This document shows, piece after piece, positions 13,454 through 16,302 of a DNA stretch of 57,647 nucleotides (position 1 is its first letter; every line of letters begins with the position of its first letter). The notes below the pieces were generated by a model. The model searched no databases. It saw only the letters and a program-made list of their open reading frames with translations, and was not told the DNA's origin. The stretch is from a virus. Location: IMG/VR virus record IMGVR_UViG_3300042514_000067, positions 1 through 57,647 of that record; one strand, written 5' to 3'. Position numbers and translations under genes: made by a program.

Positions 13454-14853
13454 ACCTATCAGAATATACGTGGCCTCGTCCCCCGGGGTTCACGCCGTTC
13501 GAACATCAGAAGACAACAGCAGAGTTCCTTACAACAAACCGCAAGGCGTTCTGCTTTAACGAGCAAGGTACAGGTAAGACAGCATCAGTAATTTGGGCAG
13601 TCGACTACCTCATGACCCTTGGATTAGTGAAGCGTGTATTAGTGATCTGCCCTCTGTCGATCATGAAGTCGGCTTGGCAGAATGATTTGTTTAAGTTTGC
13701 AATACACCGTACCGTATCAGTCGCTTATGGAGCCGCACGTAAGCGCAAAGAGATTGTGAGTCTTGGTGCCGAGTTCGTTGTCATTAACTTTGATGGTGTT
13801 GGCATCGTTAAAAAAGAAATTATGGCGGGTGGGTTTGATCTCATCGTAGTAGATGAAGCGTCAGCCTATAAGAATGCGCAGACCGAGCGTTGGAAAGACC
13901 TGCGTGACCTAACAAAAGTTATCAAAGGTCTGTGGATGCTGACTGGTACGCCTGCCGCGCAATCGCCTGTGGATGCTTACGGATTGGCAAAGCTTGTGAA
14001 CCCCAAGGGCGTGTCGCCTTTCTTTGGTCAGTTCCGAGACACAGTGATGATGAAGCTCACTATGTACAAGTGGATACCTAAGCCGACGTCACAACTCATT
14101 GTGCATAAAGCACTGCAACCCGCCATTCGGTTTGAGAAAGCCGACTGCCTTGATTTGCCGCCCGTTACATTTGTTGAGCGAGATGCACCATTAACACCGC
14201 AGCAGTTAAAGTTCTACAACATACTGAAGAAGCAGATGCTGATTGAGGCCGCTGGTGAAGAGGTATCAGCAGTTAATGCTGCCGTACAAATTAACAAACT
14301 CTTGCAAATAGCTGGAGGTGCGGTGTATACGGATACGCACGAAGTAGTTGAGTTTGATGTGAGTAGTCGGCTCAACGTGGTGCAAGAGGTTATTGAAGAG
14401 TCAAGCCACAAGGTGCTTGTGTTCGTTCCGTTTACGCATACGATTGAATTACTCGAGAAGCATTTAGTAAAGCACAACATTACATGCGAAGTAATTAACG
14501 GCTCGGTCTCTGTAAACAAACGCTCCGATATTGTCAAGCAGTTTCAAGAGCAACCAGAACCAAAAGTATTAATCATTCAACCGAAGGCGGCATCACACGG
14601 GTTAACACTAACCGCCGCTAACACAATCATTTGGTATGCTCCATGCACAAGTGTTGAAACGTACTTGCAAGCCAACGCACGTATCGACCGCCCCGGGCAA
14701 GTCAACAACATGACTGTGGTACACATCAAGGGTAGCCCTATTGAGGCCAAGATGTACACGATGCTTCAGGGCAACATAAACAACCACCAAAAAGTAATTG
14801 ATCTGTACAAGCAAGAAATTTCTTCGGAAACTCTTGACAATGTAAAAAGTTAG
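13450..14853 (+). CDS. SNF2-family DNA helicase/translocase
   Basis: A 467-residue superfamily 2 helicase of the SNF2 type. Motifs in order: Q-like FTPFEHQ (14-20), Walker A NEQGTGKT (37-44), DEAS (135-138), LTGTPA (164-169), and in the second lobe ASHGLTLTAAN (381-391) and QANARIDRPGQ (407-417). Phages often carry one such gene near the polymerase; it may remodel protein-DNA complexes or help replication restart. The 3' end of the gene contains the -35 and part of the spacer of the promoter at 14834. Confidence 0.9.
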   Translation: MNLSEYTWPRPPGFTPFEHQKTTAEFLTTNRKAFCFNEQGTGKTASVIWAVDYLMTLGLVKRVLVICPLSIMKSAWQNDLFKFAIHRTVSVAYGAARKRKEIVSLGAEFVVINFDGVGIVKKEIMAGGFDLIVVDEASAYKNAQTERWKDLRDLTKVIKGLWMLTGTPAAQSPVDAYGLAKLVNPKGVSPFFGQFRDTVMMKLTMYKWIPKPTSQLIVHKALQPAIRFEKADCLDLPPVTFVERDAPLTPQQLKFYNILKKQMLIEAAGEEVSAVNAAVQINKLLQIAGGAVYTDTHEVVEFDVSSRLNVVQEVIEESSHKVLVFVPFTHTIELLEKHLVKHNITCEVINGSVSVNKRSDIVKQFQEQPEPKVLIIQPKAASHGLTLTAANTIIWYAPCTSVETYLQANARIDRPGQVNNMTVVHIKGSPIEAKMYTMLQGNINNHQKVIDLYKQEISSETLDNVKS

Positions 14854-14861
14854 AGTACACT
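14834..14861 (+). promoter_or_regulatory. sigma-70 promoter before the leader RNA
   Basis: TTGACA (14834-14839) and TACACT (14856-14861), spacer 16 bases. The -35 and spacer (TTGACAATGTAAAAAGTTA) match the promoter at 6985 at 18 of 19 bases. The expected start of transcription, about 14868, coincides with the first base of the long stem described next. Confidence 0.82.
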
Positions 14862-14868
14862 TGTATTT

Positions 14869-14962
14869 GTGTGGCAGTGGTGGGTATCGGGTTAGCGCCG
14901 ATACATGCGCTCCATTGTTGTTAGGACGAAACACTGCTTCATGTGAACTGCTACTGTCACAC
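14869..14962 (+). ncRNA. structured 5' leader RNA (new candidate)
   Basis: GTGTGGCAGTGG (14869-14880) pairs with CTACTGTCACAC (14951-14962) along all 12 positions, ten Watson-Crick and two G-U, closing a 94-base domain. Inside it GTATCGG (14884-14890) and CCGATAC (14898-14904) form a perfect 7-bp hairpin. The remaining ~46 bases could form a further arm. The domain begins where the upstream promoter should start transcription and ends 22 bases before the next start codon. A local alternative (TGTGA/TCACA, 14942-14961) would open the main stem. I do not recognise a known riboswitch class. Confidence 0.55.
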
Positions 14963-14984
14963 ACTTAACCATTAGGAGAATTAG

Positions 14985-15410
14985 ATGGACGAAGAAGTCA
15001 AGGATAGAGTTACCCCCTTAGATTTGGACAAGCTGACCACAATCTATATCAAGATCAGAGACAAACGTGCCGACAACAAACGCATGTTCGAAGCTGAAGA
15101 CAACGATCTCAAAGAGCAGATGGAAGTGTTAGAAGCACAGATGCTCGATGTATGCAAAGACATGAATGCTGATAGCATTCGCACCCCACACGGCACAATT
15201 ATTCGCTCGGTAAAGTCACGGTACTGGACGAATGATTGGGATTCAATGTACGACTTCATAGAGGAGCACGGTGCATTTGGCCTGTTAGAGAAGAGACTTC
15301 ATCAAACAAACATGAAGGAGTTTTTATCTGAGAATCCCGAAGTTCTACCACTTGGTCTCAATGTGGAGAATTCTTATTCCGTGGTAGTTAGACGTTCAAA
15401 GGAAAAATGA
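14985..15410 (+). CDS. Gp157-like phage protein (141 aa)
   Basis: A 141-residue protein: an N-terminal coiled coil (about residues 15-60), then SIRTPHGTIIRSV, a DWD..Y.FI.E segment and a C-terminus ENSYSVVVRRSK. The layout resembles Siphovirus Gp157-type proteins, which sit next to single-strand-binding and recombination genes; the role is unsettled. It is the first gene behind the structured leader, with TAGGAG as ribosome site, so it is the most likely target of any control by that RNA. Confidence 0.6.
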   Translation: MDEEVKDRVTPLDLDKLTTIYIKIRDKRADNKRMFEAEDNDLKEQMEVLEAQMLDVCKDMNADSIRTPHGTIIRSVKSRYWTNDWDSMYDFIEEHGAFGLLEKRLHQTNMKEFLSENPEVLPLGLNVENSYSVVVRRSKEK

Positions 15411-15411
15411 A

Positions 15412-16302
15412 ATGAGTAATCTCACAATCATCAACGAAGACTTGCCCGACTTCCTGCAATCAGCAGGTGTCAGCGCACTTACAAAACAACTCGCCGGTAA
15501 GACTGGCGTTAAGCGCATTGTGCCCAAAAACGGAATCTTCCGTAAGACGGTTGGTGGTGAAGAGATGGGGAAGGTCAAGGGTAGCCTAGACGTCATCATC
15601 GTTAACGCATCCCCTGCTGTGGGTCGTATCTTCTATGCAAAAGCATGGAGTCCCGATGCTGAGCCAACTGCGCCCGACTGCTTCTCTAACGACGGACGCA
15701 CACCTGATGCCGGAGCCGAGAACCCACAGTCTGAGCGTTGCGACAACTGCCAACAGAACATCAAAGGTTCAGGCATGGGCAACTCTAAGTCTTGCCGGTA
15801 CTCACGCCGTATTGCTATGGTGTTGAAAGAGGATTTCGGTACTTCACTTGAAGGCGAAGTCTATCAAATGAACTTGGCTTCTAAGTCATTGTTCGGTGAA
15901 GGCGCGGGTGAAAACACTCACACCTTTGAAAACTACTCTAAGTACTTGTCCAACAACGGCAAGAGCTTGGACTACGTTGTTACGCAGATCAGCTTCAACG
16001 AAGAGAACGACAACCAATCTGTGTTGTTCACGCCGACTGGCTACATTAACAAAGCGCAGTACGCTGTGACTAGCGAAGTAGCTAAGAAGCCTGACGTGCT
16101 GAAGATGGTCGTTATGACACCATACCAAGCTGATATGGCGGGCAAGCAAGCTAAGTTAGAAGCACCAGCCCCTAAAGCCGCCGCGCCTAAAGTTGAGTCT
16201 CCGATTGAAGAGCCGACTAAGCGTGAAAAGAAAGCTGAACCTAAACCCACAGTTAAGAAAGACCTTGACTCTGTGGTGAAGGCTTGGAGCGACGAGGAGT
16301 AA
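15412..16302 (+). CDS. probable ssDNA-binding protein with zinc motif and acidic tail
   Basis: A 296-residue protein. The middle has CDNC and a further Cys (SKSCRYSRRIAMVL), a plausible zinc site. The last 60 residues are a low-complexity Ala/Pro/Lys linker ending in AWSDEE; a flexible linker with an acidic, aromatic tip is characteristic of phage single-strand-binding proteins such as T7 gp2.5 and T4 gp32, where it recruits partners. Its place before the primase-helicase fits. No clear OB-fold motif can be read by eye, so another role is possible. Confidence 0.55.
   Translation: MSNLTIINEDLPDFLQSAGVSALTKQLAGKTGVKRIVPKNGIFRKTVGGEEMGKVKGSLDVIIVNASPAVGRIFYAKAWSPDAEPTAPDCFSNDGRTPDAGAENPQSERCDNCQQNIKGSGMGNSKSCRYSRRIAMVLKEDFGTSLEGEVYQMNLASKSLFGEGAGENTHTFENYSKYLSNNGKSLDYVVTQISFNEENDNQSVLFTPTGYINKAQYAVTSEVAKKPDVLKMVVMTPYQADMAGKQAKLEAPAPKAAAPKVESPIEEPTKREKKAEPKPTVKKDLDSVVKAWSDEE

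Follow-up and report, generated by a model that had tools for sequence, protein, structure and literature searches.

Positions 14868 to 14963 of the 57,647-nucleotide stretch that makes up IMG/VR virus record IMGVR_UViG_3300042514_000067 (the window, in what follows) are almost certainly one copy of module A, the name given here to a family of structured phage RNAs that had not been catalogued before. In its fold, a helix (P1) encloses a hairpin (P2), a linker and a mini-hairpin (P4). The carriers of module A are many unrelated freshwater phages, in which it is usually present as one copy per genome and at different sites. A compact RNA of about 90 nt with two nearly invariant loops, which has spread horizontally among phages that have few genes in common and which bacterial genomes lack, offers a handle on phage-host interaction; its size allows expression, mutation and use as bait.

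Evidence for an RNA family

A DNA pattern consisting of two conserved pieces was run on viral contigs and on 84,980 prokaryote genomes. It matched more than 100 viral contigs, about one third of the distinct ones in genomic contexts other than that of the window, and among the prokaryote genomes it matched a single contig, which carries phage-like genes. Module A is a phage-only element. The one prokaryote match (CAIRTT010000055.1, locus L265) is a contig of an Armatimonadetes metagenome-assembled genome on which a DNA polymerase and a terminase small subunit-like protein were recognised by eye; the contig was probably binned wrongly or is a prophage.

In the seed alignment, built from 19 sequences, 97.8% of cells were paired and covariation was 0.644, compared with 0.230 in shuffles. 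A covariance model (R1) found members in every context and also detected second copies overlooked by the DNA pattern. In an alignment of 67 members, which were picked for diversity of context and fitted to the model so that the alignment leans towards it, 95.1% of cells pair, versus 29 to 51% when the strands are slid; 18 of the 22 pairs have two-sided changes (299 two-sided cells), and covariation is 0.585 versus 0.154±0.011 in shuffled alignments, with none of 500 shuffles reaching the score. The size of the effect and the earlier, independent seed nevertheless agree. A first-pass annotation of the window had proposed a covariance test on homologous leaders, and the leader passes it strongly, with compensatory changes in both main stems. 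At the ten innermost positions of P1, G-U combinations outnumber A-C combinations by 181 to 12, and therefore selection acts on the RNA of this strand.

The same annotation had not recognised the class of the RNA, in agreement with the outcome of database searches. Neither the window nor 17 loci matched the covariance models of Rfam 15, which include GOLLD and ROOL, at the gathering threshold, and a search of the leader at a lax threshold (E up to 5) gave one chance-level match of 12.8 bits. The core had no relevant match by blastn to INPHARED phages or PLSDB plasmids, and the cultured phage relatives are only distant. No description of the motif was found in a literature search. Fremin and Kyrpides have reportedly compiled a catalogue of candidate structured RNAs in viruses, which may already list the motif.

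Fixed loops and free stems

P1 tolerates any sequence. Among 56 matches selected for P1 and P2 only, P4 is invariant save for the loop letter N and one T-to-C change, and among 66 loci found through P4 and P1', the loop of P2 differs only slightly from GTTAGCG (GTTAGCT, TTTAGCT). Both loops are therefore nearly invariant even where the search left them unspecified, and the combination of free stems and fixed loops is the signature of sequence-specific loop recognition. Searches across the family found no compensated loop-loop changes, which argues that the loop letters themselves matter; kissing of the two loops through AGC/GCU complementarity, for which compensated changes are thus lacking, is neither supported nor refuted. 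A minimal AUG-UGA reading frame in P4 was considered and rejected, the base after ATGTG being not conserved (C or G in some members). One locus (L432) that matches P1 and P2 exactly lacks P4 and is a chance match, which shows the specificity of the rest of the matches.

Genomic contexts, copy number and carriers

Contexts were counted over a set of 57 that are non-redundant. A TANNNT sequence ends 2 to 9 nt upstream of P1 in 30 of these, compared with 2 to 4 in each equally wide distant bin (4 nt is also given as the width of the comparison bins), and P1 therefore usually starts at the 5' end of the transcript. A promoter flush with the RNA, as expected of a gene for a trans-acting small RNA, is thus present in these 30 contexts. 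Most other copies lie directly after the 3' strand of a conserved hairpin, named B, as the second units of arrays. Of the 57, 14 have a gene with a ribosome-binding site no more than 45 nt downstream of P1, 9 have a new promoter no more than 110 nt downstream, and 34 have neither. The genes that follow the module include Gp157-like, glutaredoxin and YdaS-like genes, and terminase regions follow it as well; other copies lie ahead of a second promoter or of a convergent gene (L265), or inside noncoding arrays. There is no consistent class of downstream gene such as a single-pathway riboswitch would have. Some stand-alone copies have U-rich tracts after P1, and the window copy has none.

The module is single in 43 of 49 carrying records and forms a tandem pair within 0.9 kb in the other 6, counts that disregard a further weak 19-bit match in record G010. 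This predominance of one copy per genome fits an RNA gene and not a per-operon signal in cis. A 63-kb relative of the window phage (G026, the same as L071) has no module in the leader and carries its copy between the terminator after the structural genes and the next promoter, and four related near-60-kb records (G027 to G030) have no copy. The 19 carriers compared for gene content fall into several groups with few proteins in common, and no protein common to all 19 was found. As a candidate for a phage-encoded partner, a protein was sought that every carrier has and the four related non-carriers lack; none qualified, the best being present in 10 of the 19 carriers. A common partner is therefore unlikely to be encoded by the phages.

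Candidate functions of module A

A single copy, varied sites, a promoter at the start and fixed loops together favour an RNA that acts in trans, since a per-operon signal in cis would be expected to be tied to certain genes or to be present several times in one genome. Judged from comparison of sequences, it is about an even call whether module A is an autonomous RNA domain that acts mainly in trans through its two loops. P1, free in sequence and starting from the 5' end of the transcript, would display the sequence-fixed loops of P2 (GUUAGCG) and P4 (UGCUUYAU), and both loops would be recognised by one factor. Since none of the phage proteins occurs in every carrier, the host is the probable source of this factor, which would be titrated or redirected by the binding in the course of infection. 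The copy in the window would be carried by the Gp157-like mRNA at its 5' end and act while attached or after processing; P1 may also shield this mRNA locally, which is compatible with a role in trans.

Several observations weigh against a trans-acting domain. The contexts with a ribosome-binding site and start codon within 45 nt of P1 include those of the window's clade, and the helicase/Gp157-like clade keeps the position of the module through large divergence (including L177 and L193), as a cis leader would. The window copy has no terminator, and its release as a small RNA would require processing. With many records fragmentary, a single copy is a lower bound, and the virion genes of most carriers are distantly related, so that the contexts are not fully independent.

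The position kept across that clade, together with the promoter, the aptamer-like fold with conserved loops, the ribosome-binding site and the ATG 22 nt downstream, is what a riboswitch or protein-binding leader regulating the downstream Gp157-like/primase operon in cis would have, and the first-pass annotation had accordingly suggested feedback control of a Gp157-like/SSB/primase block. Elsewhere, however, the module precedes unrelated genes or none, and close relatives keep the operon without the module; feedback control of this block is not supported, and with a ribosome-binding site that is not sequestered and a competing hairpin that is not conserved, cis regulation of any such kind appears unlikely. 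Protection of the mRNA from 5'-dependent decay by P1, with an inner part that is cargo for no specific partner, would account for a helix that begins at the start site and for the plain hairpin that occupies the same place in relatives (L035, L043, L047, L069, L133 and L149), but leaves two nearly invariant loops, an invariant P4 and a single copy per genome unexplained, and is improbable. An RNA of processive elongation or antitermination like HK022 put, in which the nascent leader binds RNA polymerase and terminators are passed, is a shade less probable still: the fixed place at transcript starts, the diverse downstream genes and the terminators close downstream of some copies (L213, L161, L158) agree with it, whereas the usual single copy per genome, the closed junction in place of two tandem hairpins, and the copies followed by a convergent gene or a new promoter, for which antitermination would be useless, do not. 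A DNA element (a mobile hairpin, an origin or a signal for packaging) that is read only at the DNA level, in duplex or single-stranded form, might also be expected as a single copy at varied sites; the tolerance of G-U and not of A-C combinations and the promoter at fixed spacing make it highly improbable.

The leader in the window and at homologous loci

In the window, where all features described are on the plus strand, a sigma-70-type promoter (14834 to 14861) has its -35 box, TTGACA, at 14834 to 14839, inside the end of the helicase gene, followed by a 16-nt spacer and the -10 box, TACACT, at 14856 to 14861. It agrees with the consensus at 10 of 12 positions, in a scan for which about two such promoters per kb are expected there by chance alone; the layout is the same in homologous leaders. 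The 5' strand of P1 (14868 to 14883) begins 7 nt past the -10 box, at the expected transcription start, and pairs over 16 bp with the 3' strand (14948 to 14963), as supported by fold and covariation. Thus a promoter followed by a folded RNA at the expected start of transcription, as annotated in the first pass, is present, and the 12-bp stem described then (14869 to 14880 with 14951 to 14962, two G-U pairs) is correct and extends to the 16 bp of P1. The 7-bp hairpin recognised at 14884 to 14904 is perfect and corresponds to P2, with the nearly invariant loop GTTAGCG at 14891 to 14897. The annotation left about 46 further bases within the stem; these are present, but they hold the conserved P4, which had not been separated out. 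They begin with the variable linker (14905 to 14931), which is 10 to 45 nt long across the family and forms a weak local hairpin, P3, in some members. P4 itself (CAC[TGCTTCAT]GTG, 14932 to 14945) is almost invariant and is joined to P1 by AA (14946 to 14947), as in 79 of 101 members. The ribosome-binding site AGGAG (14974 to 14978) lies outside the P1-P4 fold, and the ATG at 14985 is, as annotated, 22 nt beyond 14962. A hairpin of TGTGA and TCACA that could compete with the main stem had also been pointed out; it does exist in the window, but was rejected as a conserved switch, since just 4 of the 21 distinct leader 3' ends retain TCACA.

The folded leader is 96 nt in all. The folding energy of 14869 to 14962 is -37.4 kcal/mol (z -3.3, with 1 of 200 shuffles as good), and z is -2.2 for the wider stretch from 14862 to 14984; energy alone is only moderately convincing support for the structure, which is settled by the compensatory changes in homologues. 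Model R1 detects one copy of the module in the window, where other matches to the two loop sequences are at chance level and never occur together.

About 150 IMG/VR loci, from partly overlapping records, have the same helicase and Gp157-like genes, and the regions between these genes are of two length classes. In the long class, P1 shows many compensated changes, the loop of P2 reads GTTAGCG, and there is a linker of unconstrained sequence together with CACTGCTTYATGTGAAC. The short class, in which the same promoter is followed by no more than a short hairpin, includes three loci (L035, L043 and L047; helicases 94 to 95% identical) in which the operon is kept and the module is replaced by a hairpin of 20 nt. 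In two relatives (L123 and L143), other structured inserts stand in the leader in place of the module.

The first gene after the leader (14985 to 15410) encodes a protein of 141 amino acids that is weakly Gp157/Mu-Gam-like (PHROG 13900). Of the gene labels given in the first pass, that of primase/DUF927 is supported, SSB for 15412 to 16302 is without support, and Gp157-like reflects sub-threshold Pfam matches (E 0.046 for the window protein; E 0.0026, and DUF7307 at 2.3e-6, for homologues). The PHROGs label for the family of 14985 to 15410 is "minor head protein" (phrog_13900, E 1.8e-24), which is at odds with the replication-gene neighbourhood and may be wrong.

Exchange of domains among phage RNA elements

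Hairpin B has a fixed internal loop and a wholly variable cargo between its two conserved parts (ACCAACACGCATGGGGATTG, cargo, CAGTCCCCAGCCGTGTTGGT). There are 41 distinct examples, including L200 (minus strand, about 750 to 840 of the reverse complement), L158, L169, L288, L293 and L316, and hairpin B often alternates with module A in noncoding arrays. Module A itself is found inside the stem of B in seven loci (L170, L207, L229, L239, L240, L253 and L254). The insert in the leader of L123 (L123:5442) is found again in L308 (L308:2387), where hairpin B carries it as cargo, and that of L143 (L143:1660) recurs in L297 (L297:9954). From these shared inserts and the presence of module A in the stem of B, it follows that stems and inner domains recombine. 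The inner domains that recur in this way between the Gp157-like leader and unrelated arrays are named C, D and E, with further examples in L158, L169, L211, L295, L302, L309 and L319.

This swapping suggests that phage leaders can serve as mounts for exchangeable RNA domains, and the host factor of each domain becomes a testable question. As a tentative extension, freshwater phages might possess a toolkit of swappable RNA domains, comprising A and the cargoes C, D and E, with protective stems at the 5' end as mounts. Every domain would bind its own host factor in trans, plausibly a protein of defence or RNA metabolism, and would be exchanged like a counter-defence gene; the leader in the window would be one such mounted domain.

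Two loci with the same variant of module A each contain a tRNA of undetermined type predicted by ARAGORN, with a four-base anticodon (catc) and an enlarged anticodon loop (L164:2098-2175, minus strand; L215:7257-7334, plus strand), which is possibly a frameshifting tRNA or a decoy. Long noncoding stretches in L158, L161, L200 and L235 (e.g. L235:4200-4700), with a large terminator-like hairpin and conserved blocks such as GTACTCCGCACGTTAGTAAG, have no match in Rfam and are possibly another large phage RNA.

Comparison with known RNA systems

Like riboswitches and leader RNAs of Rfam, module A is a promoter-proximal helix junction with conserved loops that in some copies precedes a gene; unlike them, it has no family match, its downstream genes are unrelated, and many copies lead no gene. 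The put RNA of HK022 is a pair of tandem hairpins present once in each early operon. Module A shares with put the nature of a structured phage RNA at the start of transcripts, the cis position and the lack of a common downstream gene, but does not have the two adjacent hairpins near the start of an early operon that define put: it is a P1 that encloses P2 and P4, is usually present once per genome, and is also found before convergent genes and new promoters.

GOLLD and ROOL are large structured phage noncoding RNAs whose function is not known, many GOLLD RNAs exceeding 800 nt (PMC12286853). Module A is likewise a structured phage noncoding RNA, with some array copies in long noncoding regions and, in L164 and L215, copies near a tRNA-like gene, but it is only about 90 nt long and matches neither family in Rfam. 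RNA anti-CRISPRs (Racrs) are small phage RNAs that mimic CRISPR repeats, often as a solitary unit (PMC10651486). Such mimicry is without support for module A, with its sequence-free P1; module A is like the Racrs in being small, often solitary and, presumably, in acting in trans on a host system.
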